NCBI RefSeq assembly: GCF_002929805.1
Contig: NZ_PJJM01000087.1
Coordinates: 1 to 64,000, forward strand
Length of the DNA: 64,000 bases
Source of the DNA: Cryobacterium sp. Y50
GTDB taxonomy: Bacteria > Actinomycetota > Actinomycetes > Actinomycetales > Microbacteriaceae
Direction: 5' to 3'
Shown here: in pieces, positions 8,976 to 62,885 of the stretch
Numbering within the stretch: the first letter of the stretch is position 1
How the letters are laid out: every line of letters begins with the position of its first letter
Translations under genes and position numbers: made by a program
The notes under the pieces: model-generated
Told to the model about the DNA's origin: nothing
The model's database searches: none
What the model saw: only the letters and a program-made list of their open reading frames with translations

Positions 8976-8976
8976 G

Positions 8977-43220: not shown

Positions 43221-44387
43221 ATGAAGAACATCACCATCGTGGGTGCGTCCCTTGCTGGGACCAGCGCTGCTAAGGCGTTACGCGAGGATGGGTACGACGG
43301 GCACATCACGATCGTCGGCGAGGAAATCTGTCGCCCTTATGATCGGCCTCCATTATCGAAGGACATTCTGGTTGGATCCAAGACGGTTGACGAGATCGCC
43401 CTTCATGATCTGGATGACCTCGATATCGACTGGAAACTCGGCACTCCCGCGACGGGTCTGGACCTTAGCCAACGACGGGTGCGGACGGGGTCCGAGGAGA
43501 TTTCATTTGATGGCCTGGTCATCGCCACGGGAGTGAGAGCGCGGGTGCTCGCTGGCTTCGAACCCGATGGCGAGCGTGTCTTGACTCTGCGCAGCCTCGA
43601 CGACGCACTACGACTGCGAGCCTGTCTGCGTTCAGGCACCCGCGTTCTCATCGTTGGCAACGGTTTCATCGGTATTGAGGTCGCCACGTCAGCTCGATCG
43701 CTCGGCTGCAATGTCACAACAGTAGGTCTGCTTGAACCGCTCAGCGCTGCGGGCCCGATCGTCTCAGCCACCTGCGCTCGCCTCCTCGCTCGCGATGGAA
43801 TCACTTCGACCGTCGGGCGGAGAGTCATCTCCATGGATCGTGAGCGGGGGACCGCCCATCTCGATGACGGCGGCGTGCTGGAGTTCGATGTTATGGTCGT
43901 CGCCATTGGCAGTGTCCCCAACGTGGAATGGTTCGCTGGCAGCGGCCTCGCAATCGAAGACGGCGTGCTGTGCGACGAAAGATGCTCAGTGATCGGTGGA
44001 AACGGTGTGGTGGCCGCGGGCGACATCGCTCGGTGGCCGAACCCCACCTTTGCCGGGCGTTCGATGCGGATCGAACACTGGGCGAACGCCATAGAGCAAG
44101 GTGCCGCAGCCGCCCGGACGCTGCTGCACGGCGAGCAGGCCCCTGCCTTCGCCTCCCTGCCGAGCTTCTGGTCGGATCACTGTGGTGTTCGTCTGCAGTC
44201 GGTCGGACTTCCGCTCCTCGGTGATCGAATCGAATTTACCGACGGCGCCATAGATGCCGAGAAGTACGCAGTCGCCTCGTATCTCGATGGTCAAATCATA
44301 GGTGGACAGACCTACGGCATACCACGCGCGATGGCACACCTCCGTATTCGCATGTCACAGGAGCTAAAAAGAAAGCAGGCAGCATGA
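43221..44387 (+). CDS. Ferredoxin reductase of a Rieske oxygenase system (NAD(P)H/FAD)
   Basis: A 388-aa flavoprotein passing electrons from NAD(P)H to a ferredoxin. NITIVGASLAGTSAAKALRE binds FAD, RPYDRPPLSKDIL is the signature of BphA4/HcaD-type reductases, VLIVGNGFIGIEVATSARSL binds NAD, and VVAAGDIARWPNP is the late FAD motif. I chose ATG 43221; GAAGGAG lies 12 bp upstream. The only Rieske oxygenase and its ferredoxin are encoded 16 kb away (59350-61384), under a similar operator, so they are the likely partners. It overlaps the next gene by ATGA. Confidence 0.88.
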   Translation: MKNITIVGASLAGTSAAKALREDGYDGHITIVGEEICRPYDRPPLSKDILVGSKTVDEIALHDLDDLDIDWKLGTPATGLDLSQRRVRTGSEEISFDGLVIATGVRARVLAGFEPDGERVLTLRSLDDALRLRACLRSGTRVLIVGNGFIGIEVATSARSLGCNVTTVGLLEPLSAAGPIVSATCARLLARDGITSTVGRRVISMDRERGTAHLDDGGVLEFDVMVVAIGSVPNVEWFAGSGLAIEDGVLCDERCSVIGGNGVVAAGDIARWPNPTFAGRSMRIEHWANAIEQGAAAARTLLHGEQAPAFASLPSFWSDHCGVRLQSVGLPLLGDRIEFTDGAIDAEKYAVASYLDGQIIGGQTYGIPRAMAHLRIRMSQELKRKQAA

Positions 44388-45568
44388 GTATCGCAATCGT
44401 CTCAATCGGTCGAAGCCACACTGGTGATCTCGCCGGAACTCCATTGGCCGGGGATGCCATTGTCTGCGATGCCGGGCAGATCAGTTGGATCGGCCCCAGT
44501 TCGGACGTGAACCGCGACGAACATGAAACGATCGTGGACGCGCGCGGTGCCGGCGTCGTCCCTGGTCTCATCGACTCGCACGTCCACACAACCTTCGGCG
44601 ACTTCACTCCACGGCAGCAAACGGTCGGATTCCTGGAAAGTTACACACACGGAGGAGTCACGCGCGCGTTGAGCGCAAGCGAGGTACATGTCCCAGGTCG
44701 GCCAACCGATCCTGAAGGAGTTAAGGCTCTCGCCATCGCGGCGCAACGCTCTTTTGAGCACTTCCACCCGGGTGGGATGACAGTCCATGCCGGCTCAGTG
44801 ATCTTGGAGCCGGGTTTGACAGCTGAGGACTTTCGCTTCCTACGAGAACAAGGTGTCTGGCTTGCGAAAGGCGGTTTCGGAGCGTTTTCATCACCGATGG
44901 GCTATGTACCGCTCGTTCGCGATGCACGTGCCGCTGGCATCGTCGTCACGATGCACACCGGCGGCGGATCGATTCCGGGAACGCTCGAGCGCATTGACGC
45001 GGATGCGCTCTTAGCCATGAACCCTAACGTGTCCTTCCACGCCAACGGAGGGCCAACGGCGATGTCCAAGGAAGATAACAAACGACTCGTCGTCGAGGGT
45101 GGCGACATCGCACTTCAGCTCGTGATGGCAGGGAACTTGCGTTCGTCGTTGGATATCTGTCGGCTCGCTCGCGATCACGATCAGGAGGCCCGCCTCCTGA
45201 TCGCCAGCGACACTCCGACCGGCACCGGAGTCGTGCCGCTCGCCCTCTTGCACCTCATGGCCGAGCTCGTGTCACTCGGGGGTTTGAAATGGCAACAGGC
45301 AATCGCTGCGACCACGGGCAATGTAGGGACGGTGTACGGTCTCGATGCTGGGCGTCTTGAGGTCGGACGTCCCGCTGATTTGCTCGTCGTGGATGCCCCT
45401 CTCGGATCGGCCGGCGAGGACTGGGTTGGCGCCCTCGAGGCTGGCGACGTGCCGGGGATCTCGGCTGCCATCATTGGGGGAGTCCTGCGTTACACGAGGA
45501 GCCGCAATACTCCGACCGCCCGTCGACAGGTGCTTGTAAACGGCCTCGAAGCACCTACAGGTCATTGA
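44384..45568 (+). CDS. Enamidase-like metal-dependent amidohydrolase
   Basis: A 394-aa TIM-barrel amidohydrolase. Metal ligands are visible: H66 and H68 (DSHVHTTFGD), a metal-binding candidate K162, H191 (VVTMHTGGGSIPG), H219 (VSFHANGGPTAM) and D276 (IASDTPTGTG). These blocks, and PLGSAGEDWVGALEAGDVPG near the end, closely follow what I recall of enamidase from Eubacterium barkeri, which opens the cyclic enamide 6-oxotetrahydronicotinate in nicotinate fermentation. Hydrolysis of a cyclic enamide or lactam is thus the best guess. It is coupled to the ferredoxin reductase gene by ATGA. Confidence 0.8.
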   Translation: MSIAIVSIGRSHTGDLAGTPLAGDAIVCDAGQISWIGPSSDVNRDEHETIVDARGAGVVPGLIDSHVHTTFGDFTPRQQTVGFLESYTHGGVTRALSASEVHVPGRPTDPEGVKALAIAAQRSFEHFHPGGMTVHAGSVILEPGLTAEDFRFLREQGVWLAKGGFGAFSSPMGYVPLVRDARAAGIVVTMHTGGGSIPGTLERIDADALLAMNPNVSFHANGGPTAMSKEDNKRLVVEGGDIALQLVMAGNLRSSLDICRLARDHDQEARLLIASDTPTGTGVVPLALLHLMAELVSLGGLKWQQAIAATTGNVGTVYGLDAGRLEVGRPADLLVVDAPLGSAGEDWVGALEAGDVPGISAAIIGGVLRYTRSRNTPTARRQVLVNGLEAPTGH

Positions 45569-45586
45569 ATCACCAATCGTTCAACC

Positions 45587-45614
45587 TTGCATACTGTATA
45601 CTGTTGTCTATAAT
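45587..45614 (+). promoter_or_regulatory. Promoter with GntR-type operator (site 2) for the 45.6-53.0 kb operon
   Basis: TTGCAT (45587-45592), a 16-bp spacer and a consensus TATAAT (45609-45614). TGCATACTGTATACTGT (45588-45604) fills the -35 and spacer; its reverse complement contains the shared core ACAGTATACAGTATGCA. A strong core promoter occluded by an operator fits inducible expression. Confidence 0.65.
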
Positions 45615-45638
45615 TCACTGAAAGTAGGGAATGCCGTC

Positions 45639-46214
45639 GTGAGTAAACCTGAAGTCCGCAACTGGGTCACCGTCGTCCAGGAGATCAACACAGACGGAGG
45701 CCCAAAGGTAGAGGAGCCGCTTGTGAAAGCTGCGGTTGCAGCCGTGATCTCAAATCCGTACGCGGGGGGCTACGCCGAGAACCTCGATGACCTCATCGAT
45801 TTCAGCGTCGAACTCTCCCGGGAACTTGTCGCCCGCTGCCTCGCGGCACTTGGTGGTCGAACCGCGGAGAGCTGTGGCAAGGGAGCAATTGTCGGCACAT
45901 CCGGAGAGCAAGAACACGGGGTCGCCTGCCTCACAACACCATTCGGTGATGCAATGCGCGAGGGTATCGGCGGCACCGGCTGGGTCACCTCGACCACAAA
46001 AGTCGGCGCCGCCGGATCAACTCTCGACGTGCCGCTCGCGTATAAGAAGGCGCTGTTCGTACGCGAGTTCTACGACACCATCTCGGTGACGCTCTCTGGA
46101 GGCCCGCGCCCCGACGAGATCGCCGTCATCGCCGCACTCGCGACGCGCGGCCGGGTCCACAGTCGTGTGGGCGGCCTCGCCAAGGCGGATGCGATTGGGG
46201 ATGGTCTCCGATGA
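45639..46214 (+). CDS. DUF1185 ('amino acid synthesis') family protein
   Basis: A 191-aa protein. The motif pattern VVQEINTDGGPKVEEPLVKA, then AAVISNPYAGGYAENLDDLI, YGKGAIVG-like SCGKGAIVGTSGEQEHG and DVPLAYKKALFVREFYDTIS matches PF06684. Despite the name its reaction is not established; members occur in catabolic clusters for N-compounds. GTG start 45639 has GTAGGGA upstream; an ATG 8 bp earlier stops at once. First gene of the seven-gene operon, overlapping the next by ATGA. Confidence 0.78.
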   Translation: MSKPEVRNWVTVVQEINTDGGPKVEEPLVKAAVAAVISNPYAGGYAENLDDLIDFSVELSRELVARCLAALGGRTAESCGKGAIVGTSGEQEHGVACLTTPFGDAMREGIGGTGWVTSTTKVGAAGSTLDVPLAYKKALFVREFYDTISVTLSGGPRPDEIAVIAALATRGRVHSRVGGLAKADAIGDGLR

Positions 46215-46876
46215 CCGCTGGCATGTTGTTCTCTCAGATGCATCCGCCCGTGGGGGAAGAGAGCGACTTCCGCGACTGGTACGAGTCGGAGCACATCCCG
46301 GTCCGATTGGATGTCCCTGGTTTCGCGAACGCGGTGAGGTACGAGCAGCATGGAGACGGCCCACGGTATCTCGCTGTCTACTTTCTGGATGACATGGCCG
46401 CCCTCGATACAGCCGAGTACGGCCGCATCAAGCAAGAGCCCAGTGCACGTACTGCTCATATGCTCGAGAATGTCACCGGGTTCACCCGGTACACGGCCGA
46501 CCTCATCTCAGATACGGGCGAGACCGATCCTCGTGCTGCAGGAGTTCTCTTCGTCGTCGCATTCGAAGTCCCCGTGTCCGAGGAGGGCGACTTCGAAGCC
46601 TGGTACCAGGGTGAGCACGTCCCTTTACTAATGAAAGTTCCTGGTTGGCAACGAATCCGTCGCTACAAGACACGACCCGGTGCAGAGGGGCGTCCTTGGA
46701 CCCACTTCGCGCTGCACGAGATCCAAGACCTCGCCACGCTGGATGCGCCCGAGCGCGCCGCTGCACGAGACACGCCGTTGCGTGACGAACTCGCAAGCCG
46801 TCCGTGGTTCGACAGCGGGCGCTGGAACTATTTCCCAATTCACTACGCATTCTCGACCTCCAAGGAGCACAGCTAA
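46211..46876 (+). CDS. Tandem EthD-like/dimeric alpha-beta barrel protein
   Basis: A 221-aa protein with two similar halves. Each begins with a strand, then an acidic segment and a conserved WYxxEH: DFRDWYESEHIPVRLDVPGF at about 18-38 and DFEAWYQGEHVPLLMKVPGW at about 120-140. This is the EthD/DABB fold, found in decarboxylases, isomerases, monooxygenases and accessory proteins; the His of each EHxP may be catalytic. The duplicated form would make a pseudo-dimeric barrel in one chain. Function unknown; coupled by overlaps with DUF1185 and the DapA-like gene. Confidence 0.75.
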   Translation: MTAGMLFSQMHPPVGEESDFRDWYESEHIPVRLDVPGFANAVRYEQHGDGPRYLAVYFLDDMAALDTAEYGRIKQEPSARTAHMLENVTGFTRYTADLISDTGETDPRAAGVLFVVAFEVPVSEEGDFEAWYQGEHVPLLMKVPGWQRIRRYKTRPGAEGRPWTHFALHEIQDLATLDAPERAAARDTPLRDELASRPWFDSGRWNYFPIHYAFSTSKEHS

Positions 46877-47889
46877 TGGCCCTTCCCTATTCTCGCGCCG
46901 AAGCAAAAGACCGCGCTCGATCGGAATGGCGAGGAGGCTGTAATGTCACCTTGCCGTCCTTTAATGCCGACTTCTCCGGATTGAATGAGGCGGGCATCCG
47001 CCACGACATTCGCCGTGGTGCCGAGCTCGGATTTTGGGGCACACTCGTCGCTTCTGAGAGCGGCACCACTTTCGCGGAGTACAAGCGTTTCTTAGAGATC
47101 GCGGTCGATGAAGCGCCAGCCGGCTTCAAGATCGTCGCACACCTCAGTTTCGACACGGTCGAGCAGGCGATAGAGGCTGCACAGCTCGCGGAGGCCCTCG
47201 GTGCTGAGGCGGGTCTGCTTTCGTACCCGCAATCCTTCCGGCCCAAGTCCTCGGCCGACATTGTGGAACACACCCGCCATGTGACCGACAACACAGATCT
47301 GGCAATGATTCTCTTCGCGACGAGCGCTTGGGGATTCAAGCCGTTGCACACGGCCGGCTTCCCGCTCGACGCACTCAAAGAAATGGTGCAAATCGACACA
47401 GCCGTCGCGCTGAAGTATGAAGGTGGCGGTTCCGCCGTAATGTCGGCATTGACCCAAGTACATGAGCTGTGCAGTCCTTATGTGATCGTCGAGAACCCCA
47501 TGGAGCAGCAGATTCCCGTGCAGGCGCGCGAATTCGGTACGCGCTGGTGGGGTACGAGCGCCTACGAGTCGTTCGGAGACCGGGTACCGCGGGTCATGGC
47601 GGCCTTGGCAGAGGACCGATTCGACGACGCGATGGATATCTTCTGGAGCTACAACGCGGCGCGCGAGGCCAAGGGCGCGTTCCACGCTTCATTCGCCGGG
47701 GCCAACCTCATTCACCGCAACGGGTGGAAGTACCTCGGTTGGCTCAATGGCTTCAACGGCGGACTTGTGCGGATGCCCCACATGCGTCTCGCACCCGGAC
47801 AGATGAAGTCCCTTCGAGCTGGCCTTGCTGCCTCGGGGTTCGACCTCCCAGCGAACGACGATGACTTCTATACCGGACGCGTGCAATGA
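46876..47889 (+). CDS. Dihydrodipicolinate synthase-family lyase
   Basis: A 337-aa TIM-barrel enzyme of the DapA/NanA family. The Schiff-base lysine is seen in TAVALKYEGGG; LPSFNADFSGLNEAGIRHDI and LGFWGTLVASESGT occupy the substrate-loop region. The usual YNxP tyrosine segment is replaced by FATSAWGFKP, so it is a divergent member. TAATG overlap and AAGGAG upstream set the start. In this pathway it may cleave or form a C-C bond next to a keto acid, for example after extradiol ring opening; hydratase-aldolase activity on an aromatic side chain is also known in the superfamily. Confidence 0.78.
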   Translation: MALPYSRAEAKDRARSEWRGGCNVTLPSFNADFSGLNEAGIRHDIRRGAELGFWGTLVASESGTTFAEYKRFLEIAVDEAPAGFKIVAHLSFDTVEQAIEAAQLAEALGAEAGLLSYPQSFRPKSSADIVEHTRHVTDNTDLAMILFATSAWGFKPLHTAGFPLDALKEMVQIDTAVALKYEGGGSAVMSALTQVHELCSPYVIVENPMEQQIPVQAREFGTRWWGTSAYESFGDRVPRVMAALAEDRFDDAMDIFWSYNAAREAKGAFHASFAGANLIHRNGWKYLGWLNGFNGGLVRMPHMRLAPGQMKSLRAGLAASGFDLPANDDDFYTGRVQ

Positions 47890-48860
47890 CTTTATTCTTG
47901 AGCAGTGACGACGTTCGTTTGCTCTGCTCCCAAGATGTCGCGGCACGAGCCGCACGCACGGTGCTCGATGCCCAGGCATCGGGCCACTATCGGCTGCCTC
48001 ACCGCTACGACATCGATCTTCCCAACGGTTTCTTCCGGATGATGCCCGCCGCCGTCGGGGATTACGTCGGCGTCAAGATCATGACTCTTGCACGCGGCGT
48101 CGGCAATCGATACCTTCTCGCACTCTATTCACAGCAGACCGGTGAGTTGATTGCCTTGGTCGACGCCGCTGAGGTGACGCAACTCCGAACCGCGGCCACC
48201 ACTGCGGTCGCCGCAGGTCTCCTCCACCCAAACGGTGCCTCACATGTAGGCCTCATCGGGACGGGGTTCGAGGCGGCCGGCCACCTCAGGGCTTTAGCCC
48301 ACTGCTGGCCGCTCGAATCGGTGACCGTATACAGCCGTTCACCGGAGCACCGTGATGAGTTCGCTGATCGAATGAGCGCGGAACTTGGGATAACGGTTAA
48401 ACCGGCTGCCGATCCGGCGGGCGTGATCATGACGAGTGAAGTCTCGATGCTCTGCACGAAGTCGAAAGAGCCCGTGATTGAGGGCATGAAATTCGCGCGA
48501 GGAGCAACCGTCCTTTCGATTGGCTCCACCCGTCCCGACCTTCGAGAACTCGACATCGCGACATTTGCTCGCTCCGCCGCACTCCTCGTTGACGATCCCG
48601 AACAGGTCATCGCGGAGTCCGGCGACGTGGCTGCTGCGATCGCCGCCGGTGTACTGGATCGAGACAGGATCTTCGCCATGAGCGAGTGGTCGGGTGCCAC
48701 CATCGACAGTGATCGTGACCTGCTGACATTCAAATCCGTCGGTACCGCGATCCAGGACCTCGTGCTAGCCGCGGAGCTCGTCGCCAGTGCGCGCGAGAGC
48801 GGGGTGGGACGGGAGCTCGGCGAACTGGCGAGTCTCAAACGGGTGCCCTCCCTTGCCTAA
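47886..48860 (+). CDS. Ornithine cyclodeaminase/mu-crystallin (ketimine reductase) family protein
   Basis: A 324-aa NAD(P)-dependent enzyme. GNRYLLALYSQQTGELIALV, then AEVTQLRTAATTAVAAGLL and the Rossmann GLIGTGFEAAGHLRAL are standard for PF02423. Family members deaminate ornithine, or reduce cyclic ketimines such as piperideine-2-carboxylate. In an operon with an enamidase homologue, reduction of a cyclic imine formed from an N-heterocycle is a reasonable hypothesis; alanine-dehydrogenase-type activity is an alternative. It overlaps the upstream gene by ATGA. Confidence 0.85.
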   Translation: MTLFLSSDDVRLLCSQDVAARAARTVLDAQASGHYRLPHRYDIDLPNGFFRMMPAAVGDYVGVKIMTLARGVGNRYLLALYSQQTGELIALVDAAEVTQLRTAATTAVAAGLLHPNGASHVGLIGTGFEAAGHLRALAHCWPLESVTVYSRSPEHRDEFADRMSAELGITVKPAADPAGVIMTSEVSMLCTKSKEPVIEGMKFARGATVLSIGSTRPDLRELDIATFARSAALLVDDPEQVIAESGDVAAAIAAGVLDRDRIFAMSEWSGATIDSDRDLLTFKSVGTAIQDLVLAAELVASARESGVGRELGELASLKRVPSLA

Positions 48861-48893
48861 GTCGGCCACAACCAACGAAGTTGAGGAGATATT

Positions 48894-49742
48894 TTGACCG
48901 AGTTTGCATATCGTCCTGTCCTGACGCGTGTCGTTGTCGGGGTCCCTGACCCCGACAAGACAGTCGCGTTCTTGACGGATGGCTTTGATTTTAGAGTCCG
49001 AACTGAGAACGGTCGCATCTTCGCGGACACCCTCGGTGACTATGGGCCGAACGGTCAAAGTGCTCTCGAAATCCGCAAGGCAGATAGTCTCCAATTCCTG
49101 AATGTGGTCTTCACTCTGACCGAGGACTTCGACGCTGATACCTTGGTCAAGAACTTGGGCGGAACGCGAACGGAGACCGGCGGAGTGCAGCTGGTCGATC
49201 CGACCGGCCTGCGGGTGGCAATTGAGCCCGCTGCCGAATTCATTATCGATAAGCCCGAAGTGTCAGCTTATCGTCCGCGTCGGCTCGGCCATGTCAATGC
49301 TCGGACACCTGACCCCGTGCTCTCGTCGGAGTTCTACCGACATGCATTCGGTATGGCTCTATCGGAGCAGATCGGGGATGACTTCTTCTTCCTGCGTACG
49401 AACACCGAGCATCACAACGTGGGACTGCGCCGCGCACCGCGCACCGACCTCCATCATCTGGGCTTCGAACTCGCTGGATGGCACGCGTACCAGCCGATCC
49501 TCGACCACCTCGATGCCGCCGGATACAAGGCGGAATACGGCCCCGGCAAACATCGGCCAGGCACCAGCTACTTCACTTACGTCCGCGACCCCTCATCGGG
49601 TCTTCGGTTCGAACTTTTCGCCGACATGGCGCACATCAGGACCGGCTGGGAGACCGAGCCGATTCGTTGGCAAGGCGGAGACCGAATGACGAAGACGATC
49701 AACATCTGGGGCCCGACGCCGCCCGAGAGCTTCCTCGAATGA
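48894..49742 (+). CDS. Extradiol ring-cleavage dioxygenase (VOC superfamily, type I)
   Basis: A 282-aa two-domain VOC protein. The Fe(II) triad is intact in the C-terminal domain: H133 (RRLGHVNAR), H188 (LHHLGFEL) and E240 (LRFELFAD). The second-shell residues in TEHHNVGL and GKHRPGTSYFTYVRDPSSG also fit catechol 2,3-dioxygenase/BphC. TTG start follows GAGGAG by 5 bp. It should cleave a catechol-like or dihydroxy-heterocyclic ring next to the two hydroxyls, using the diol produced by the Rieske oxygenase and SDR encoded at 59.3-62.2 kb. Confidence 0.9.
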   Translation: MTEFAYRPVLTRVVVGVPDPDKTVAFLTDGFDFRVRTENGRIFADTLGDYGPNGQSALEIRKADSLQFLNVVFTLTEDFDADTLVKNLGGTRTETGGVQLVDPTGLRVAIEPAAEFIIDKPEVSAYRPRRLGHVNARTPDPVLSSEFYRHAFGMALSEQIGDDFFFLRTNTEHHNVGLRRAPRTDLHHLGFELAGWHAYQPILDHLDAAGYKAEYGPGKHRPGTSYFTYVRDPSSGLRFELFADMAHIRTGWETEPIRWQGGDRMTKTINIWGPTPPESFLE

Positions 49743-49758
49743 CAGCAGGTGGCGCGAT

Positions 49759-54718: not shown

Positions 54719-54793
54719 TGATCATTCTCTTTTCGTGTGTGAGCGCAACGCTCATTGGATTCTGAGGGCACAGCTGCCACAGAAAGGTACGGT

Positions 54794-55717
54794 TCAGCGG
54801 GCGACGATACAGTCGAGCTGTTTCGTCACGATGTCTAGGACTTCGAGGTAGTTGCGTTCCCTCGGAAGATAGTGGCCATTGCCCTCAAGCCCCTCGTCCG
54901 CTAGCCATACCACTTCCGCGTCCGCTCCCCATGAGGTGAGGAGTTGGGCGGTCCGCCGCTCGAGTTCGAGGGTGTGTGCAGGATCTTCGCTTCCGGCCAG
55001 CAATCGGATGCGCTTTCCTTCGAATCCCTTGACACTCTCAATTACGGGCATGCCCGGGATCGCACCCACTCGTTGCAGAAGCATCCGGGGAGACATTGAG
55101 CCAACCCCGGCCTTCAGAATTGGCAGCCATTCAGGGTCGAATTGCGTACTTCCTGCGATGGCCTGATCGTTGATGTAACTATCACCGTAGGTGTAGGGCG
55201 TGCGCCGATCCACTTCGAACGACACCCCTGTGTCGACGAAGGTCAAGTGCACCACGTTGCCATCATCGCTCGTGACCTCCGATTTTTGTTGGATATTCGC
55301 CGGGTACGCGCACGCGATCCCAACGACTCCGGCGATAAGTTCGGGGATCTCCTCGATGAGTCGCCAGGCGACCGCTCCTCCCATCGAATGGGGCATGACT
55401 ACTACGGGACGTCCGATGATATCTCTGACAAGCCGAATGTAGCCGTCGACCACGTCTTGGTAGTCAAGTGTCAGAAGGTCACGGTAGCCGGAACGACCGG
55501 AACCAGGCCAGTCGGTAACCCAGCATTCGTACCCATCAGCGGCGAGCCGGTCCGCCCACCCTGCGCCACCGTCAAAGGAAGATCGCCACGTCGTTCCGAA
55601 GGATGCTCCACCGTGGATGAAGAGTACGGGATATGGGTACCCCGAACCATCACCCAAAACTTCGTAGTACAGGCCGCTTACAATTTCGCGGCCCACAGTA
55701 GCCTTGATATCACTCAT
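54794..55717 (-). CDS. Alpha/beta hydrolase
   Basis: A 307-aa hydrolase. The oxyanion region is FIHGGASFGTTW, the nucleophile elbow VMPHSMGGAVAW (GxSxG-like HSMGG), the acid in LLAGSEDPAHTLE and the His in EGNGHYLPRE. WVTDWPGSGRSGYR is typical of carboxylesterase/C-C hydrolase relatives. It overlaps the ABC ATPase gene by 8 bp. It could hydrolyse the imported compound (ester or amide) or the extradiol ring-fission product; co-transcription with the importer favours early steps. Confidence 0.82.
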   Translation of the reverse strand: MSDIKATVGREIVSGLYYEVLGDGSGYPYPVLFIHGGASFGTTWRSSFDGGAGWADRLAADGYECWVTDWPGSGRSGYRDLLTLDYQDVVDGYIRLVRDIIGRPVVVMPHSMGGAVAWRLIEEIPELIAGVVGIACAYPANIQQKSEVTSDDGNVVHLTFVDTGVSFEVDRRTPYTYGDSYINDQAIAGSTQFDPEWLPILKAGVGSMSPRMLLQRVGAIPGMPVIESVKGFEGKRIRLLAGSEDPAHTLELERRTAQLLTSWGADAEVVWLADEGLEGNGHYLPRERNYLEVLDIVTKQLDCIVAR

Positions 55718-56510
55718 TCGCGGCGCCGACGCTCTCGCTATCCGGCGCGTGACGAATGAGCCGGGCGACTTGAGATCGAAGGGTCACGAACGCGCTCGAC
55801 TCCTTCGTCGTGACCTGGTCGCGCTCAGCGGGGAGGTCAACCGCGATGCGCTCCACGACCCTGCTCGGCGATTTCGAGAGCACGAGAACCTCGTCCGCCA
55901 AGTAGACCGCTTCGTCAATGTCGTGTGTCACGAACAAAATTGTCATTCCCAGCGTCCTGTGGACGTGTCCAACTAGATCTTCGAGGTCTGCTCGTGTTTG
56001 GGCATCGACGGAAGCAAACGGTTCATCCATCAACAAAAGCTTCGGATGAAACGCGAGCGCACGGGCGATCGCTGCCCGCTGCTGCATACCACCGGACAGC
56101 TCCCACGGGTACTTGTCAGCCTTGTTACCGAGCCCGACGGCCTCGAGACTTTCCTGAGTCCGCTGCTCACGTTCCTTAACGTCCAGTCCCCGGTAACGCA
56201 GCGGCAGTTCGACATTCGCTCCGATCTTCAACCACGGAAAAAGTGACCGGCTGTAATCCTGGAACACCATGGCGAGGTCGGAAGGGACCTCCGTGACATC
56301 CTGGCCGAGGAGATTGACCTGCCCGCTCGTGAACGAGAGTAGGCCCGCGATCGACTTCATGAGAGTCGTCTTTCCACATCCTGAAGGACCCACGATCGAT
56401 GTGAACTTACCGTTGTTCACGCTGAAGGTCACGTCGTCGATCGCGATGCTTCCTGGACCATACGCATGGTGCAAATTTTTGATGTCGAGTAATGGGGCTG
56501 TGGTCGTCAT
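55710..56510 (-). CDS. ABC transporter ATP-binding protein (SsuB/TauB-like)
   Basis: A 266-aa ATPase of a NitT/TauT importer: Walker A GPSGCGKTT at 41-49, Q-loop MVFQDYSRSLFPW, signature LSGGM at 138-142, Walker B LLLMDE at 158-163 and FVTHDIDEAVYLAD. Part of a five-gene import unit with two permeases and a binding protein. GGAGACC precedes the ATG. Confidence 0.92.
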   Translation of the reverse strand: MTTTAPLLDIKNLHHAYGPGSIAIDDVTFSVNNGKFTSIVGPSGCGKTTLMKSIAGLLSFTSGQVNLLGQDVTEVPSDLAMVFQDYSRSLFPWLKIGANVELPLRYRGLDVKEREQRTQESLEAVGLGNKADKYPWELSGGMQQRAAIARALAFHPKLLLMDEPFASVDAQTRADLEDLVGHVHRTLGMTILFVTHDIDEAVYLADEVLVLSKSPSRVVERIAVDLPAERDQVTTKESSAFVTLRSQVARLIRHAPDSESVGAANE

Positions 56511-56523
56511 GGGTCTCCGAGGG

Positions 56524-57393
56524 TTAGTCGTGCTGGCGGGCGCCGCGATACCAACGGAGGACGCGCCGTTCGATCACGGTAAAGCCGAGATTCAGTAGAT
56601 AGCCCAGAATTGCAAGCAGGGCAATGCCCGCCCACATGTCCGTCAGGGCGAATGTCTGTTGCGCAGTAAGGAGTTGATGCCCGATCCCGTCGGTAGAAAC
56701 GGTAAGTTCGCTGATCACCATCAAAACGAGGGCGACAGCGAGCGACACCTGAATCCCAGCAAATATCTTGGGCATCGCGGCAGGGATCACAATTCGGAAG
56801 ATCCGCGCGCGCCACGGCAGGCCGAAAGCGCGACCCGTCTCAAGCTGAGTCGAGTCGATCGCGCGGACGCCGTCGATGCTGTTCAAGAGAACAGGCCAAA
56901 TAGAACCGAATGCAATCAAAGAGATGCGCATCAGATTGTCGGTACCGAGAAGGATGAGGAACACCGGGATCAGTGCGGGACCGGGGGTCGACCGCAAGAA
57001 GTGGACTATCGGGTCGACGAGCTGCGACACCACCCGGGACCGTCCAATCGCAATTCCGAGGGCCACGCCGAGGACGACAGCGATGCCCCACCCCGCAAAC
57101 ATCCGTCCCAGGCTTGAGCCGATATCTGCCACAAGTGCCGGCGTGACAAACCAGGGTGACGGTCCGGAAAACCACAGCTCGTACATCCGTACCGCGATCT
57201 CCGAGGGCGGGGGGAAATAAAGCGAATCGCCCGCAACAGCTGCGATCTGCCACAGCACCACGAGAATGACCGGGGCGGCGATCCTGATGATTACGAACTT
57301 GGCCCCAGACATGAACTCGTTTTGGAGTTTGGGCGCGCCCGACGCGGGTGGACGAACGGCACGTGATGCGGTTCCCGACAATATTGACGCCAT
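56524..57393 (-). CDS. ABC transporter permease (SsuC/TauC-like), second of two
   Basis: A 289-aa six-helix permease. YFPPPSEIAVRMYELWFSG and the EAA loop LETGRAFGLPWRARIFRIVI fit the family. Start ATG 57391-57393 overlaps the upstream permease stop (TAATG) with GGAGA before it; the longer frame is rejected. Two non-identical permeases suggest a heterodimeric channel. Confidence 0.9.
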   Translation of the reverse strand: MASILSGTASRAVRPPASGAPKLQNEFMSGAKFVIIRIAAPVILVVLWQIAAVAGDSLYFPPPSEIAVRMYELWFSGPSPWFVTPALVADIGSSLGRMFAGWGIAVVLGVALGIAIGRSRVVSQLVDPIVHFLRSTPGPALIPVFLILLGTDNLMRISLIAFGSIWPVLLNSIDGVRAIDSTQLETGRAFGLPWRARIFRIVIPAAMPKIFAGIQVSLAVALVLMVISELTVSTDGIGHQLLTAQQTFALTDMWAGIALLAILGYLLNLGFTVIERRVLRWYRGARQHD

Positions 57394-58256
57394 TAGTTCT
57401 CCGTTCCGCGCCGTACCCAGCGAAAAAATCGACGATCGACCAAGCTCAGGATGCCATTGATCGCCAAACCGAGCACTCCAGCCCAAATAGCCCCCGCAAG
57501 AACGGTGGCGACGTCGTCACCCGCACTACTCGCTTGGAGGATGAAGGACCCAATGCCTGATGTAGCGCCGGCTACAAGCTCGGCACCGACGATGATTACG
57601 AGGCCGAGGCTCGCGGCGATCCGTATTCCTGTCAAAATGAACGGTGCGGCGCTCGGTAGGACAACTTCTTTCAGGATCGCAAAACGTGGGATCCCGAAGC
57701 TCCGTGCGGTCTCTTTCACGACCGGATCGACGTCCCGAACCCCATAGATGGTATTAAAAAGTACTGGCCAAATAATGCCGAAGGTCGTGAGCATTACTTT
57801 CATCTCGGTGCCCTGCCCCCACACTAAAATCGCCAATGGGATGAGTGCGACGGCAGGAATGGGACGGAGCGCGTTGATGACTGACGAGCTGGCAGCGTAC
57901 GCCAGCTTTGATGACGCTAGCGCCACGCCCGCCGGAATCGCAATCACAGCGGCGAGGACGAGGGACAGTGCCCATCCCCATAGCGTCCAGCCGACCTCTT
58001 GCAGGAACACCGGGTCGACGATGAGCTGCAATGCGCGCACGATGACGGTTGACGCATGGGGAAGGTATTTTTCGTCGACGATGCCGAGTCTCGAGACCAT
58101 CTCGGCGATCAGGAGAAATCCGATCGCCCCCGAGACGCCGTAGACGAGCTTCGTACTGATGCGACGCTTTCCTTTGCGGGAAGAGGATGCCTCGGAGCCG
58201 ACACCCTCCGGCTTCCGCCGGTCGAGGGTGTCGACTCCACTACCAAGGGATTGCAC
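57393..58256 (-). CDS. ABC transporter permease (SsuC/TauC-like), first of two
   Basis: A 287-aa permease. YLPHASTVIVRALQLIVDP and the EAA loop KETARSFGIPRFAILKEVVL are characteristic. A basic, Ser-rich N-terminal tail (about 35 residues) precedes helix 1. GTG start is 5 bp after the binding-protein stop. It shares the general layout but little sequence with the other permease. Confidence 0.88.
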   Translation of the reverse strand: MQSLGSGVDTLDRRKPEGVGSEASSSRKGKRRISTKLVYGVSGAIGFLLIAEMVSRLGIVDEKYLPHASTVIVRALQLIVDPVFLQEVGWTLWGWALSLVLAAVIAIPAGVALASSKLAYAASSSVINALRPIPAVALIPLAILVWGQGTEMKVMLTTFGIIWPVLFNTIYGVRDVDPVVKETARSFGIPRFAILKEVVLPSAAPFILTGIRIAASLGLVIIVGAELVAGATSGIGSFILQASSAGDDVATVLAGAIWAGVLGLAINGILSLVDRRFFRWVRRGTEN

Positions 58257-58261
58257 GGGGG

Positions 58262-59245
58262 CTACTTATCTGCACCCGGGATGGTCGCGTTCGGCACCAG
58301 ACCGGTGTCGCCCAGAACGTCTACGACGATTTGAAGCTTCGAGAAATCGGACTCCTCCGGATACGACGGCAGCGTCATGTTTGCCGCCGCAGCCTCCGGG
58401 ATTTGCGTGTACTGCAGAATGGCTACGCGGACTATGTCGGGATCGGTCCGCGCCAAATCCGTCGCCTTCTGAAGCGCACGCTTCACAGCCGCTACGGTAT
58501 TCGGATTGGCGGACGCATATTTCTCCGACGTGGTAAATCCGACGATCGGAAACTGTTCGTAGTCTCCCGAGAAGAGATCATTAATTGACCGGAATCCGCC
58601 AGCTGCCTTCATCGCACTGAGCGTGGGTTCGGGGACGCATGCGGCGTCGATGCCACCACGTTGCACGTTGCCCGGCATGTCGGGAATAGCAATGGTCACG
58701 AAATCCGGCTGGGCATCAGAGCCAGAATTCGCCAGGGCTGCCAACGGAATCTGATCACAGTTACCCGGTGTTACAACTACGCCAACCTTTTTACCATCGA
58801 GGTCGGCCAACGTTTTAATTGGCGAGTCCTCGAGAACCATGATCTCGGCATAGCCGGGCCCACCTCGATCCGCCTCAGCGACCGCAGAGATCTCAATACC
58901 CTGACTGACGGCCTGCAAATATCCGACCCAGTTGACACCGACGACGTCCAAGCTGCCGCCGAGTACTGCCGGAATCGCTCCGCCGGGACTCATAACCTCT
59001 GTGGTCGCCGCGATCCCTTCGTCTTCGAAGAATCCCTGATCGAGTGCGATTTGGATCGCTACGTAGTCTGGAGTCGGAAGGATCCCGAACTTGACTGACG
59101 TCTGTTCCAGGGCACCTTCAGCCGTTGCTGGCGTCTTTACCTCAACGTCGGATTGGGCGCAACCGGCGAGCAGGAGCGCAGCTGACGCTATCGCAGCCAG
59201 CGCAGCTCGGCCGGCGTTGGTGCGGGTCTTATTTGCTGTGACCAT
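58262..59245 (-). CDS. ABC transporter substrate-binding lipoprotein (NitT/TauT family)
   Basis: A 327-aa binding protein: signal peptide with lipobox LAGC and Cys29, then TSVKFGILPTPDYVAIQIAL and QGFFEDEGIAATTEVMSPGG, the NMT1/SsuA pattern. GGSLDVVGVNWVGYLQAVSQG lines the ligand cleft. The phthalate, sulfonate and aromatic-carboxylate importers of this class share this form, so the ligand is probably an anionic aromatic. GGAGG precedes the ATG. It is the first gene after operator site 3. Confidence 0.9.
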   Translation of the reverse strand: MVTANKTRTNAGRAALAAIASAALLLAGCAQSDVEVKTPATAEGALEQTSVKFGILPTPDYVAIQIALDQGFFEDEGIAATTEVMSPGGAIPAVLGGSLDVVGVNWVGYLQAVSQGIEISAVAEADRGGPGYAEIMVLEDSPIKTLADLDGKKVGVVVTPGNCDQIPLAALANSGSDAQPDFVTIAIPDMPGNVQRGGIDAACVPEPTLSAMKAAGGFRSINDLFSGDYEQFPIVGFTTSEKYASANPNTVAAVKRALQKATDLARTDPDIVRVAILQYTQIPEAAAANMTLPSYPEESDFSKLQIVVDVLGDTGLVPNATIPGADK

Positions 59246-59287
59246 TTGTTGCCTCCGTAACTTCTTTGTAAAGGAGCATAAAACTAG

Positions 59288-59326
59288 TACGTGTATACAG
59301 TAGTCACTATCTCACTAGTAAGTCAA
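59288..59326 (-). promoter_or_regulatory. Promoter with GntR-type operator (site 3) for the importer operon
   Basis: On the minus strand TTGACT (59321-59326) is followed after 18 bp by TACTGT (59297-59302). TGTATACAGTA (59292-59302, plus strand) covers the -10 and matches site 1 exactly over 11 bases. It lies about 45 bp upstream of the binding-protein start. Confidence 0.6.
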
Positions 59327-59349
59327 TCGACCACGTTAGTGAGCTGAGT

Positions 59350-59550
59350 TTAAGCGCGCATTGCCACGCTGATCGCGGCCACTGGGCACACTTTTACTGC
59401 AGCCTGGACCTCGGTCAGGCGTTCCTCGCCGATGTCGGACATGAGCAGGAAAGCATGCCCTTCGTCGTTAATATCGAAGACCTCAGGGGCCGCAGACACG
59501 CAGTTACCGTAGCCCTGGCACCTGCTCAGATCAATCGTCACGTCGATCAT
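59350..59550 (-). CDS. Small ferredoxin ([3Fe-4S] or [4Fe-4S], P450/Rieske-type partner)
   Basis: A 66-aa ferredoxin: DLSRCQGYGNCVSAAPEVF carries a CxxxxxC segment, and AAVKVCPVAAISV the CP motif. Three cysteines in the pattern C-x5-C ... CP indicate a single cluster. It overlaps the oxygenase beta subunit gene (ATGA) and ends the Rieske operon. It should shuttle electrons from the reductase at 43221 to the oxygenase, an uncommon choice because most such systems use a Rieske ferredoxin. Confidence 0.85.
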   Translation of the reverse strand: MIDVTIDLSRCQGYGNCVSAAPEVFDINDEGHAFLLMSDIGEERLTEVQAAVKVCPVAAISVAMRA

Positions 59551-60065
59551 AGGAATACTCCGAGATTCTTCGTGCCGAGAGAGGACTGGTCGAGGATCGC
59601 CCGTCGGCGGGCGATCTTCCACTCCTGTCCAATCCTGCGGAAACGGTCCTGACGTTCTCCGGCGATTAGGTCATAGGAACCACGGTCGCCGCGGCTTCGA
59701 AACATCAGAAGATTGGATCGGACATCCAGTTCGTCAGCTATATCCGTCAGACGAATTCTGATATTGGTGATCAGGCGACGGGTGTGCGACGGCGGATCCT
59801 CCGCCCATGCGACATCGGTGCGCAATCTTTTGACCCGCATGGTCAGCGAGGCGAAGTCGTCGTCGAAGTGGCCGATGTCGTCGACGATATCGGAAGCTGG
59901 CGACTTCCGGTGGACCCGGATCGGTGCGGTGTAGTGAATGTCCGGAGCGAAGATCGTGAGCCACTCTTCATACTGCCGATCGTCAAGGTACTCCGCCTCT
60001 TGCACGAGGAAATCGGAGATCTCGAGCCGGGTCTCGAGGTCAACTTGTATGGCCGAGCGCGTCAT
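59547..60065 (-). CDS. Ring-hydroxylating dioxygenase beta subunit
   Basis: A 172-aa protein of the SnoaL-like beta-subunit fold (PF00866): ISDFLVQEAEYLDDRQYEEW, FAPDIHYTAPIRVHRK and TRRLITNIRIRLTD are recognisable. It has no cofactor and supports the alpha3beta3 hexamer. ATG 60063-60065 overlaps the alpha stop, so the longer frame is rejected. Similar to salicylate/anthranilate- and biphenyl-type beta subunits, but substrate is not readable. Confidence 0.88.
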   Translation of the reverse strand: MTRSAIQVDLETRLEISDFLVQEAEYLDDRQYEEWLTIFAPDIHYTAPIRVHRKSPASDIVDDIGHFDDDFASLTMRVKRLRTDVAWAEDPPSHTRRLITNIRIRLTDIADELDVRSNLLMFRSRGDRGSYDLIAGERQDRFRRIGQEWKIARRRAILDQSSLGTKNLGVFL

Positions 60066-61384
60066 TTCTCCGGCTCCTTCAGAACCAAGTCCAGCCAAGT
60101 GCGCCAATATTTCCGGCCGGCCGCCTCAGAAAACTTTCCGTCGAAGACATGTCCGGGGCCTGGGAATTCGGTCAACGGCTCCATTCCCAGTCCCATGCCG
60201 TAATGAAGCATGATCTCCTCGTCTCGCGCCAGCGCGGTGTTTGAATTCCGTGTTTGAGCTTCCCAGTTCTCCGTGTCGTCCTGGTCGAACATCCCGGATG
60301 AGCCGAAGGTCTGCACGTAGGCGGCCTTAGCGGCCTTCTTCCACCAATCCGGACCGTTCTTCTCGATCAGGTGCCACGACCAGACCTGCAGCTTGTCTGG
60401 ACCGATAGGCTGCCAGACTCGCAGCATCAGACCGCTCACCTTCTTGCCGTCGATGTCGATGAAGTTAGGTTGCAGGAAAGACATGTGAGGGAACACGTTC
60501 CCGTGCAGATTCTTCAAATGACTAAGCAATTCGTACTGCTCTTCGCTTAATCTACTGCGGTATTCTTCCTGCAATTCCGGCGGAAAGTATGACTCGTCGT
60601 CGGAATGGGTTCCGATTCCGAGCCCGTGGCCATTATCGGGCGCGACGTGATAACCGTCACGGCCGAAGTCGACCCCTTTCGTGAGATTGAGCCGGGCCAT
60701 AAACGAGTGTGCCGTGGCTGTGTGGTAAGCGTCGGATGTGAAGTTGTCAGCGGGCAGCTTCCATCCGGATGGCACCACCCACTTCTGAGGCACGCCAACG
60801 ACCTCCATCTCGGCACGACCGAAGAGGAGATCGAGGTACCACCGCACATCGCCCAGAAAATCGGACAAAGGGGCGATTTTCTTGTCCCAAGTGGCGAAGA
60901 TCAGCCCTTGATAGGTCTCCACCCTCGCCTCGATCAAACTCAGCGCTTTCCGATCGAGCCCTTGTGGATACGCCTGGCGCTCGAACGGGGCGCCGAGCAG
61001 TGTGCCCATGAAATCGCCCTTCGATCCGTAAGTGAACCCGTGATACTGGCACCGCCACATGTCGACCTGGCCGAAGTCTTCGCACGCGAGCTTCATTCCC
61101 CGGTGCCGACACGAATTCAGGAACACGCGCACAACGTCGTCGTCTCCACGGCCAACAATCACGGACTGCTCTCCCATGTCGCGTACCACGAAAGAACCGG
61201 GCCCTGAGAGCTCCGACGCGTGGGCGAGGAACAGCCAGGTGTGAGGGAAGACGCGCTCAAGTTCGAGCTCATACACGTCCGGATCCGAGTAGACGAACAT
61301 CGGGACCCAACCTTGCTCGGGTTCTACTGTATTGCGGAGACGTTCTGTGACGCCCATCCGCCTGTCATTGCTATTTTGAGGCAT
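60062..61384 (-). CDS. Rieske non-heme iron dioxygenase alpha subunit
   Basis: A 440-aa oxygenase. The Rieske cluster ligands are C92-x-H94 and C112-x2-H115 (SCRHRGMKLAC, CQYHGFTYG). The mononuclear iron site is DNFTSDAYHTATAH with H221 and H226, and bridging D218; the third ligand Asp lies in the C-terminal half. It should cis-dihydroxylate an aromatic ring. Its start codon is 7 nt from the -10 TATTCT, so the transcript is likely leaderless; an in-frame ATG at 61357 is an alternative. The operon order is alpha, beta, ferredoxin, and an operator overlaps its promoter. Confidence 0.9.
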   Translation of the reverse strand: MPQNSNDRRMGVTERLRNTVEPEQGWVPMFVYSDPDVYELELERVFPHTWLFLAHASELSGPGSFVVRDMGEQSVIVGRGDDDVVRVFLNSCRHRGMKLACEDFGQVDMWRCQYHGFTYGSKGDFMGTLLGAPFERQAYPQGLDRKALSLIEARVETYQGLIFATWDKKIAPLSDFLGDVRWYLDLLFGRAEMEVVGVPQKWVVPSGWKLPADNFTSDAYHTATAHSFMARLNLTKGVDFGRDGYHVAPDNGHGLGIGTHSDDESYFPPELQEEYRSRLSEEQYELLSHLKNLHGNVFPHMSFLQPNFIDIDGKKVSGLMLRVWQPIGPDKLQVWSWHLIEKNGPDWWKKAAKAAYVQTFGSSGMFDQDDTENWEAQTRNSNTALARDEEIMLHYGMGLGMEPLTEFPGPGHVFDGKFSEAAGRKYWRTWLDLVLKEPEK

Positions 61385-61399
61385 AGTACACAGAATACA
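61384..61399 (-). promoter_or_regulatory. GntR-type operator (site 4) over the -10 of the Rieske operon
   Basis: GTACACAGAATACA (61386-61399, plus strand) is a divergent half of the shared palindrome. In the gene's direction it reads TGTATTCTGTGTAC, containing a -10 TATTCT (61392-61397). It ends one base before the ATG. Shares GTGTATTCTG with site 5. Confidence 0.6.
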
Positions 61400-61440
61400 C
61401 TTTCTGCTTTTTTCTGCCAGTAAAGATTCAATGAAGACTC

Positions 61441-62160
61441 TTACGGCATTAGTAATCCACCGTTAACGTGCAGAACTTGACCGGTGATATAAGCTGATTC
61501 TTCGCCCAGAAGGAAGAGGATCGGTGCGACTATATCGTCGATCTCACCCAGCCGGCCCATGGGAATAGCCGCGGCCTTCTTGTGCTCATCGAAGGCGGGA
61601 TTGTCTTGAATCATCGCAGTCTTGACCGGGCCCGGCGCGACACTGTTGACACGGACGCCGCGGAGCGCGTACTCAAGGGCTAATGATTTCGAGAGTGCCT
61701 CAACACCGCTCTTCGCAGCCGCATAGTTTGACCCGAACGGATAGCCTTTTCGCCCCCATCCACTCGACATCGTCACGACCGCTCCTCCGCCACGGCGTAC
61801 CATACCGGGCAACATTTCACGGGTGATCAGATACACGCTCGTGAGTGAGACATCGATCACGCGTTGCCACTCCTCCAGTTCGAGGTCTTCGAAAGGAAAC
61901 TCCTTCACGACTCCCGCCGCACAAACTAATAGCTCGGGATCCCCAAACTCCGAGCGCACTCTGCGCATCCCCGCAGCAACATCGCGCGCTTCAGTGACAT
62001 CGCACGTGATCGAGAGGGTCGCATCGCTCGACTGCGCGATGTCGAGAACAGCAACCGTGGCCCCGCGAGCACGAAGAGCTCGCACGACTCCTCCGCCGAT
62101 TCCGCCCGCTCCACCGGTTACGACGATAGTTTTCTCCACGAAATCGTCAGAGCGCGTCAT
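61441..62160 (-). CDS. SDR-family dehydrogenase (probable cis-diol dehydrogenase)
   Basis: A 239-aa classical SDR: VVTGGAGGIGGGVVRALRA binds NAD, LLVCAAGVV is the NNAG-region, and the catalytic Ser in MSSGWGRKG and YAAAK in GSNYAAAKSGVEALS are intact. ATGA coupling to the GntR gene fixes the start at 62160. Located between the Rieske operon and its regulator, it is the obvious candidate for dehydrogenation of the cis-diol to a catechol-type product. Confidence 0.87.
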   Translation of the reverse strand: MTRSDDFVEKTIVVTGGAGGIGGGVVRALRARGATVAVLDIAQSSDATLSITCDVTEARDVAAGMRRVRSEFGDPELLVCAAGVVKEFPFEDLELEEWQRVIDVSLTSVYLITREMLPGMVRRGGGAVVTMSSGWGRKGYPFGSNYAAAKSGVEALSKSLALEYALRGVRVNSVAPGPVKTAMIQDNPAFDEHKKAAAIPMGRLGEIDDIVAPILFLLGEESAYITGQVLHVNGGLLMP

Positions 62161-62884: not shown

Positions 62885-62885
62885 C

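Follow-up and report, generated by a model that had tools for sequence, protein, structure and literature searches.

Which compound is taken apart by the catabolic island at 43.2-62.9 kb of contig NZ_PJJM01000087.1 of Cryobacterium sp. Y50, and do its genes serve a single pathway? We analysed the first 64,000 nucleotides of this contig (hereafter the window), for which a first-pass annotation had proposed one pathway for a nitrogen-containing aromatic compound, with cyclic imine or enamide intermediates, that could be checked by finding the same gene order in other genomes. Our results speak for a substrate of two fused rings, an aspect absent from that annotation, and we put at about even the chance that the island serves the catabolism of a carboxylated benzo-fused nitrogen heteroaromatic of the quinoline or quinolone type, a substrate class suggested by enzyme homologies.

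The window is part of an 82,130-base contig in a 4.40-Mb genome. Pfam and NCBIfam scans covered 20 proteins at 43-64 kb and recovered, in their places, the gene families that had been named from the sequence. The island comprises two convergent gene runs meeting at 53.0-53.3 kb (Table 1), with overlaps of about 4 bases between several adjacent genes. On the plus strand lie, in order, a Rieske dioxygenase reductase, an amidohydrolase (amh), a PF06684 protein (aas), a double EthD protein (ethD2), a DapA-like protein (dapA), an ornithine cyclodeaminase (OCD) homologue (ocd), an extradiol dioxygenase (exd), a thiamine diphosphate (ThDP) enzyme (thdp) and aldehyde dehydrogenase (ALDH) 1; the minus strand carries a GntR regulator, a short-chain dehydrogenase/reductase (SDR), the Rieske alpha (riA) and beta (riB) subunits, a ferredoxin, the binding protein, two permeases and ATPase of an ATP-binding cassette (ABC) importer, an alpha/beta hydrolase and ALDH 2 (aldh2).

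The link between the two halves is seen in a locus of Rhodococcus sp. IEGM 1381 (L020), which was found by the amh query alone and brings together homologues of GntR (52%), riA (68%), riB (60%), amh (76%), aas (68%), ethD2 (60%), dapA (74%), ocd (56%), aldh2 (48%), exd (50%) and thdp (58%). From riA onward, the homologues (10 of the window set) share one strand as a single run, which reads riA, riB, ferredoxin, amh, PF06684, EthD2, dapA, ocd, aldh, exd and thdp. Such a run means that oxygenase and amidohydrolase belong together; the gene set is non-random, beyond what chance would give, and the claim of one linked pathway is supported. Homologues of the SDR and the reductase were not seen within the 21-kb L020 stretch, and another alpha/beta hydrolase follows the cluster. 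Its importer is Liv/urea-like, and we therefore rejected the importer type as a hint of the substrate, since it is not diagnostic. NCBI places L020 in Rhodococcus whereas its tree label is Cyanobacteriota; a GC content of 63-64% favours Rhodococcus.

The dioxygenase set is complete, as had been claimed, once the small ferredoxin is counted: the alpha subunit carries the CxH..CxxH motif and the D-H-H iron site, and beta subunit, ferredoxin and reductase are all present. The ferredoxin gene was found by listing open reading frames (ORFs) and a motif scan and confirmed by Pfam; at E 0.001, PF13370 matches nothing else in the 4.4-Mb genome. Among PDB entries, the alpha subunit scored 315.8 bits with naphthalene dioxygenase versus 259.8 bits with the 3-phenylpropionate enzyme, and it remained under the NCBIfam HcaE equivalog cut-off (281 of 830 bits), so that its substrate class is a prediction from homology. 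The extradiol enzyme is a two-domain VOC protein, of which Pfam sees the C-terminal domain only, with His/His/Glu iron ligands present in its motifs and in the alignment to 1f1r. Decarboxylation by the benzoylformate-decarboxylase-like ThDP enzyme, followed by oxidation by an ALDH, could shorten a side chain of the 2-oxo-enoate type.

The case for nitrogen in the ring is carried mainly by the homology of amh to enamidase, which would suggest the opening of a cyclic amide. The protein matches enamidase (2vun) over residues 5-383 of 394 at E 6.1e-94, the next PDB match having E 2.9e-9, and the first-pass description of it as enamidase-like is thus strong, with a qualification at residue 164, which we take to be a metal-site position of enamidase. 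We aligned 25 sequences (enamidase 2vun, the window, T. roseum (L036), a Comamonadaceae locus (L034) and 21 further loci); H67, H69, H193, H220 and D276 were invariant in all of them, and the window protein is a close relative of enamidase, whose function it may share by homology. The enamidase metal-site set including Glu164 is not retained in the window protein, which has Lys at this position, preceded by a one-residue gap relative to enamidase. Glu164 and Lys164 types lie on opposite sides of one tree branch (support 100/99), and the Glu164 rows include all three loci with 6-hydroxynicotinate reductase (L034, L062 and L064). Outside the tree, L028 is of the Lys type, and L032 and L033 read as the Glu type.

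The remaining proteins of the amidohydrolase half are less telling about the substrate. The PF06684 protein scored 199.8 bits against a cut-off of 27 and matches 2qtp and 3byq in the PDB; the accessible passages of one paper link TgnF of the trigonelline pathway to this family (PMC7913881), and the accessible part of a paper on a PF06684 structure points to amino-acid metabolism. For ethD2, the best of five AlphaFold models reached a pLDDT of 79 (the others 36-62) and matched anthrone-oxidase-like and putative monooxygenase folds at 10-12% identity; a function based on fold was dropped, as the model resembles alpha-beta-barrel proteins of many functions. The DapA-like lyase of the first-pass annotation held up as a PF00701 relative, but a remote one (E 1e-7) that in alignment keeps the Lys and has Phe where hydratase-aldolase-type relatives have Tyr. 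Hydratase-aldolases use a Schiff-base Lys and an active-site Tyr in catalysis; the PDB search gave no PhdJ or NahE match at E 0.01, and we do not count the protein among them. Its AlphaFold model (pLDDT 46) was discarded. The OCD protein, annotated as a ketimine-reductase homologue, belongs to PF02423 and contains the nucleotide-binding motif, but it scored under the cut-off of every NCBIfam model matched (13 of 13; best 149.6 of 417 bits), and a specific activity can be suggested by homology. The OCD, DapA-like and PF06684 (DUF1185) proteins, which had been counted as reasons for a ring nitrogen, were rejected as proof of it because OCD and DapA-like genes occur with other hydroxylases and PF06684 in a coumarin operon; of that claim, the opening of a cyclic amide suggested by enamidase homology is the part that stood.

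To place these genes in context, we examined the neighbourhoods of amh relatives gathered by amh-only searches, so that links were unselected except in plasmid contexts chosen by eye (read for 9 of 27 records). The mapped set comprised 21 amh loci (22 stretches, L025 being without the gene), with neighbours called by blastp at E 1e-8; T. roseum (L036), Comamonadaceae (L034) and L028, L032, L033 and L035 extend it to 27. The last four lie outside map and tree and were examined separately for the 27-locus counts, and weak partial matches (L007-L019) were left out of all counts. L034, about as distant as L032 and L033, was put in the tree for its reductase, and the 25-row counts lean that way. 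Within the stretch containing amh, the 21 mapped loci carried PF06684 at 19, an isochorismatase-like gene at 5, an ethD2 relative at 4 and the Rieske alpha/beta pair at 3 (L020, L031, L058). Over the 27 non-window loci, PF06684 was present at 22, the Rieske pair at 4 (L020, L031, L036, L058) and a molybdenum (Mo) hydroxylase or 6-hydroxynicotinate reductase at 7. The latter genes accompany four of the five Glu-type tree rows besides 2vun (L034, L062, L063 and L064; not L061) and neither of the Glu-type loci L032 and L033. Background rates were taken from 14 genomes (~58 Mb; 24 PF00848 and 72 MoCoBD_2 matches) with 14 non-window amh places (L024, L052-L064; ~242 kb), and they cover those genomes, not Rhodococcus or T. 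roseum. A Mo hydroxylase was found at 4 of the 14 places (L052, L062, L063, L064) versus ~0.3 expected, an excess that is real in this set. Rieske alpha was found at one (L058) versus ~0.1 expected; the PF00848 search missed the window's own alpha subunit, hence an undercount.

Two other uses of these genes were seen in the same collection. L034, L062 and L064, a Comamonadaceae plasmid and two genomes of the window's phylum, combine Glu164 relatives with 6-hydroxynicotinate reductase, UPF0280 and PF06684, which amounts to a reductive nicotinate-like pathway outside clostridia. In Mesorhizobium (L028) and genome G042 (L024), the stretch with PF06684 and the amidohydrolase also holds two type II dehydroquinase-like genes and one for a flavin adenine dinucleotide (FAD) oxidoreductase, an unexplained use of the module.

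The clusters that unite a Rieske set with amh fall into two groups. The amh tree separates the window and L020, with their sister L052, from T. roseum, L031 and L058. A label count on this tree gave 1 change with 14 rows omitted and is therefore no test of two unions; the Rieske alpha tree, with five rows in two groups, needs 2 changes, and none of 200 bootstrap trees needs just 1. The Rieske set and the Lys164 amh were likely joined twice independently, which falls short of proof. In the second group, the DHDPS-family protein of T. roseum matches PhdJ (6dan, E 6.3e-80) and NahE (6dao, E 5.2e-68), with both Lys and Tyr kept, and has relatives in L031 and L058 (61-62%). Enzymes of the NahE/PhdJ type process the side chain that remains once a ring has been cleaved next to a fusion position; the hydratase-aldolase thus argues for a fused-ring substrate in this group, and fused rings together with an enamidase relative plausibly mean that one ring contains nitrogen. 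For ring cleavage, T. roseum has a VOC protein, and L031 and L058 have LigAB. Further genes of the T. roseum cluster encode an AMP-ligase, two crotonases and a subunit of a Mo hydroxylase, and its order DHDPS, Rieske A, Rieske B, small protein, SDR approximates that of clusters on plasmids of Pseudarthrobacter phenanthrenivorans and of Rhodococcus, one of the latter named pNAPH. Blastp at E 1e-8 found no PF06684 in the L031 stretch, and the motif scan found no ferredoxin motif in that of T. roseum.

From the gene content, homologies, motifs and linkage in another genus we infer the following reactions, their order and the substrate class. The ABC importer would bring in the acid, on whose benzo ring the Rieske system (alpha, beta, ferredoxin and reductase) would form a cis-dihydrodiol, to be converted to the diol by the SDR. 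The extradiol enzyme would then cut beside the ring fusion to leave a pyridone with a 2-oxo-enoate side chain, which the ThDP enzyme would decarboxylate and ALDH 1 oxidise at the resulting aldehyde. The Lys164-clade enamidase relative, aided by its PF06684 partner, would hydrolyse the ring amide of the remaining pyridone; since a 4-hydroxy-2-pyridone can be drawn as a cyclic enamide, hydrolysis of the enamidase type might proceed without prior reduction. An imine or enamine released by ring opening would be a plausible substrate for an OCD-type reductase, and the OCD homologue (imine reduction), the DapA-like protein (a C-C step), the succinate-semialdehyde-dehydrogenase-like ALDH 2 and perhaps the isochorismatase-like hydrolase would finish the open chain. 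Kynurenate is an attractive, if unproven, candidate substrate that would fit the early steps. The host genome has a tryptophan dioxygenase gene beside a kynureninase-like gene (G000:C65:203864-206816), the latter under its family cut-off, and these tryptophan genes neither support nor exclude kynurenate. We regard it as unlikely that this island supplies the genes so far missing for the aerobic mineralisation of kynurenate or a closely related quinolone-carboxylate by 7,8-dioxygenation, dehydrogenation, 8,8a-cleavage and then a new class of pyridone opening by the Lys164 clade with PF06684.

Several results weigh against a benzo-fused nitrogen heteroaromatic. Position 164 is Lys in 19 of the 25 aligned rows, including the window, and Glu in 6; we know of no tested member of the Lys164 clade, and the window protein is possibly a lactonase. 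A Mo hydroxylase stands near Lys-type genes at 3 of 19 non-window loci (L028, L036, L052), none with the reductase, and 3 of the 4 Mo-hydroxylase places in the 14-genome set are of the Glu type. In the window and the next 18 kb, to which the search was confined, 6-hydroxynicotinate reductase gave no tblastn match at 1e-5, nor did Mo hydroxylase, UPF0280, FAD monooxygenase or hydratase-aldolase references give any match. The link between Rieske genes and amh proves little in the 14-genome set alone, and the background rates lower confidence both in the nitrogen and in two separate unions; for the latter, the well-supported branches of the Rieske alpha tree alone force 1 change, and a long outgroup row makes its deep forks unsure. 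OCD, DapA-like, ALDH and VOC extradiol genes also accompany FAD hydroxylases on a Corynebacterium and a Roseomonas plasmid, where the incomplete gene table for the 19-kb stretches annotates no amidohydrolase. The reaction may even be of another type, given that, in the accessible part of one study, oxidative opening of 3,4-dihydroxypyridine is reported for a protein of the amidohydrolase family (PMC7356986).

These points could be met by a fused oxygen heterocycle such as a coumarin or chromone, of which the amidohydrolase would open a lactone and not a lactam. Lys164 differs from enamidase, the clade is rarer beside nitrogen-ring genes than the Glu clade, and the PF06684 protein HcdD is co-induced in a 7-hydroxycoumarin operon, for which, however, the accessible text names no amidohydrolase (PMC7913881). 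We consider such a substrate rather unlikely, as Lys-type L028, L036 and L052 do stand with Mo hydroxylases and the imine-reductase homologue lies within the same run in two genera. Also unlikely is a single nitrogen ring, or two separate rings as in an aryl-substituted pyridine, with the oxygenases acting on the amidohydrolase's own ring or on a pendant phenyl. Here the nearest NCBIfam models, for 3-phenylpropionate dioxygenase (beta at 186.9 bits, above its subfamily cut-off; alpha as given above), and HpaD as the nearest relative of the extradiol enzyme both represent enzymes of single-ring acids, and amh relatives of Agrobacterium and Ancylobacter have an FAD monooxygenase in place of the Rieske set; the better PDB score of the alpha subunit with naphthalene dioxygenase and the naphthalene-type hydratase-aldolase of the parallel clusters speak instead for fused rings. 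It is very unlikely that the oxygenase part serves a nitrogen-free, arylpropionate-like compound while the amidohydrolase, PF06684, OCD and DapA-like proteins serve another, being neighbours by chance or shared regulation: both halves form one run in Rhodococcus, the reductase and amidohydrolase genes overlap by 4 bases in the window, and Rieske pair and amidohydrolase also occur together in T. roseum, L031 and L058, as against the two convergent runs of the window, the OCD and DapA relatives that accompany other hydroxylases, and the single amh place with Rieske genes among the 14 of the background set.

Table 1. Features of the island in Cryobacterium sp. Y50 and at its edges (window coordinates)
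Feature	Position	Strand	Evidence
Transposase remnants (IS3-type by eye), left of island	41361..42345	-	Translations; 82% over 360 bp to remnant at 67.8-68.2 kb of contig
FAD-dependent ferredoxin reductase of Rieske system	43221..44387	+	PF07992 E 3.7e-46; best NCBIfam HcaD 224 bits, cut-off 450 missed; L058/L031 relatives 39-40%
Amidohydrolase (amh), Lys164-clade enamidase relative, proposed nitrogen-ring opener	44384..45568	+	PDB 2vun E 6.1e-94; H67, H69, H193, H220, D276 kept 25/25; position 164 K; tree split 100/99
PF06684 AA_synth (DUF1185) protein (aas), putative amidohydrolase partner	45639..46214	+	PF06684 E 3.1e-59; PDB 2qtp E 1.6e-36; shares stretch with amh relative in 19/21 mapped loci
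Double EthD / DUF4286 dimeric alpha-beta barrel protein (ethD2)	46211..46876	+	PF14114, PF07110; relatives near amh in 4/21 loci
Divergent DapA-superfamily protein, Lys kept, Tyr replaced by Phe	46876..47889	+	PF00701 E 1e-7 (scanned as longer ORF); PDB matches remote only; alignment
OCD / mu-crystallin family NAD(P) enzyme (ocd), imine reductase homologue	47886..48860	+	PF02423 E 1.2e-35; PDB 6t3e pyrroline-2-carboxylate reductase E 8.1e-35
Type I (VOC) extradiol dioxygenase (exd)	48894..49742	+	PF00903; HpaD / catechol 2,3-dioxygenase relatives under their cut-offs; PDB extradiol enzymes; His, His, Glu motifs
ThDP enzyme, proposed benzoylformate-decarboxylase-like 2-oxoacid decarboxylase	49759..51441	+	PF02775/PF02776; best PDB benzoylformate decarboxylase E 8.4e-31; best NCBIfam PRK08327 254.7 bits, cut-off 456 missed
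ALDH 1	51482..53002	+	PF00171 E 1.2e-148 (scanned as longer ORF)
ALDH 2, succinate-semialdehyde-dehydrogenase-like	53291..54718	-	TIGR01780 486 bits, cut-off 646 missed; Rhodococcus cluster relative 48%
Alpha/beta hydrolase	54794..55717	-	PF12697 E 3.9e-18
NitT/TauT-type ABC ATPase	55710..56510	-	PF00005; taurine/nitrate ATPase families under cut-off
NitT/TauT-type ABC permease 1	56524..57393	-	PF00528
NitT/TauT-type ABC permease 2	57393..58256	-	PF00528
Substrate-binding lipoprotein, NMT1/SsuA type	58262..59245	-	PF09084 E 3.3e-19; TIGR01728 84.8 bits, cut-off 163.5 missed
Fer4 ferredoxin of Rieske system	59350..59550	-	PF13459 (Fer4_15) E 6e-15, PF13370 (Fer4_13) E 7.9e-13; motif also in L020, L058, L031
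Rieske dioxygenase beta subunit (riB), HcaF-like	59547..60065	-	PF00866 E 4.2e-39; NF007479 186.9 bits, above subfamily cut-off 145
Rieske dioxygenase alpha subunit (riA)	60062..61384	-	PF00355, PF00848; best PDB 2b1x naphthalene dioxygenase E 4.2e-93; Rieske and iron-site motifs
SDR, proposed cis-dihydrodiol dehydrogenase (substrate predicted)	61441..62160	-	PF13561 E 1.7e-55; YxxxK motif
GntR/FCD regulator	62157..62885	-	PF07729, PF00392; 52% homologue at head of Rhodococcus cluster
Isochorismatase-like hydrolase, crosses window end (to 64011 of the contig), possible island extension	63334..63999	-	PF00857 E 1.4e-29; relatives in 5/21 mapped amh loci

Beyond the GntR gene lie the isochorismatase-like hydrolase, which crosses the window end, and a second NitT-like importer (contig ~64008-67622), with both of which the island may continue. 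Transposase remnants at ~67.8-68.6 kb share 82% identity over 360 bp with those at 41.3-41.6 kb; a third related piece at 35.8-36.1 kb means that these repeats are no unique mark of the island edges. A search of 197 further genomes from the order gave one full-length amh relative (G042, 51%), the remaining matches being weak (E 3.9e-12 or worse), and 13 of the 396 genomes in a sample of the phylum, the host included, matched amh at E 1e-60. This sporadic distribution and the flanking remnants would fit a horizontally acquired island of ~42-68 kb. Left of the island, two copies in opposite orientation (37443-38638 and 39923-41118), with a transposase-like gene labelled by eye, are 94% identical over 1196 bp. 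Farther left, inspection by eye revealed a catabolic-looking run at 1131-8975 (major facilitator superfamily transporter, FAD oxidoreductase, coenzyme A transferase, crotonase, DapA-family protein at 5804-6742, SDR and ALDH) and, from translations at 10329-13499, another ABC importer of NitT-like type together with a small protein resembling deaminases.

If the island does serve a carboxylated benzo-fused nitrogen heteroaromatic, bacteria would take apart fused nitrogen rings by means of a naphthalene-style front end and an enamidase-style ring opener. It would also provide a first testable role for the widespread Lys164 clade and for PF06684, the function of which is unsettled, and concrete gene candidates for an old tryptophan-metabolite pathway for which the literature searched offers enzymology and no genes.

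The first-pass statement that no described pathway has this gene set agrees with our search, in which no published cluster of this content was found in literature that excluded most subscription journals; as far as the searches show, the parts are of known kinds, and their union and the Lys164 clade are undescribed. With the enamidase of Eubacterium barkeri (2vun), the window protein shares full-length homology and the five conserved His and Asp residues, whereas Lys164, the one-residue gap, the separate clade and the lack of a 6-hydroxynicotinate reductase in the window set it apart; a likeness to the reductive nicotinate pathway lies in PF06684, which also stands beside amh relatives that accompany 6-hydroxynicotinate reductase. 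The Rhodococcus clusters of the pNAPH type presumably encode the naphthalene upper pathway, which the window resembles in its Rieske alpha (nearest 2b1x) and T. roseum, L031 and L058 in a gene set that includes a hydratase-aldolase relative; the window departs from that pathway in having a divergent DapA-like protein in place of the hydratase-aldolase relative, and in its ThDP enzyme and enamidase-PF06684 module. In the 4-hydroxypyridine kpi pathway of Arthrobacter sp. IN13, compared here by the description in the accessible text, the amidohydrolase-family KpiC (28% to enamidase) likewise opens a hydroxylated pyridine ring, but the pathway starts with an FAD monooxygenase, concerns a single ring, and has KpiC reported as a dioxygenase (PMC7356986).

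A plasmid of Rhodococcus pyridinivorans YF3 from a quinoline-degrading bioreactor (L037) is similar in keeping Rieske A/B, ferredoxin, SDR, isochorismatase and GntR together; it differs in an extra three-subunit Mo hydroxylase, a Rieske alpha at 37% and a 25-kb stretch in which no enamidase relative is annotated. At 3170-21291, a single region of it combines an annotated ring-opening dioxygenase with the Mo hydroxylase, MoaA/D/E, Rieske, isochorismatase, ferredoxin and SDR genes. As to kynurenate, the literature searched yielded no gene sequences for its degradation by Pseudomonas, and the likeness is one of reaction steps. Taniuchi and Hayaishi are said to have described 7,8-dihydroxykynurenate in this degradation in 1963, and the route would need enzymes for dioxygenation, diol dehydrogenation and extradiol cleavage, then for decarboxylation of the side chain and oxidation of the aldehyde. 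The island has a candidate for each of these steps.

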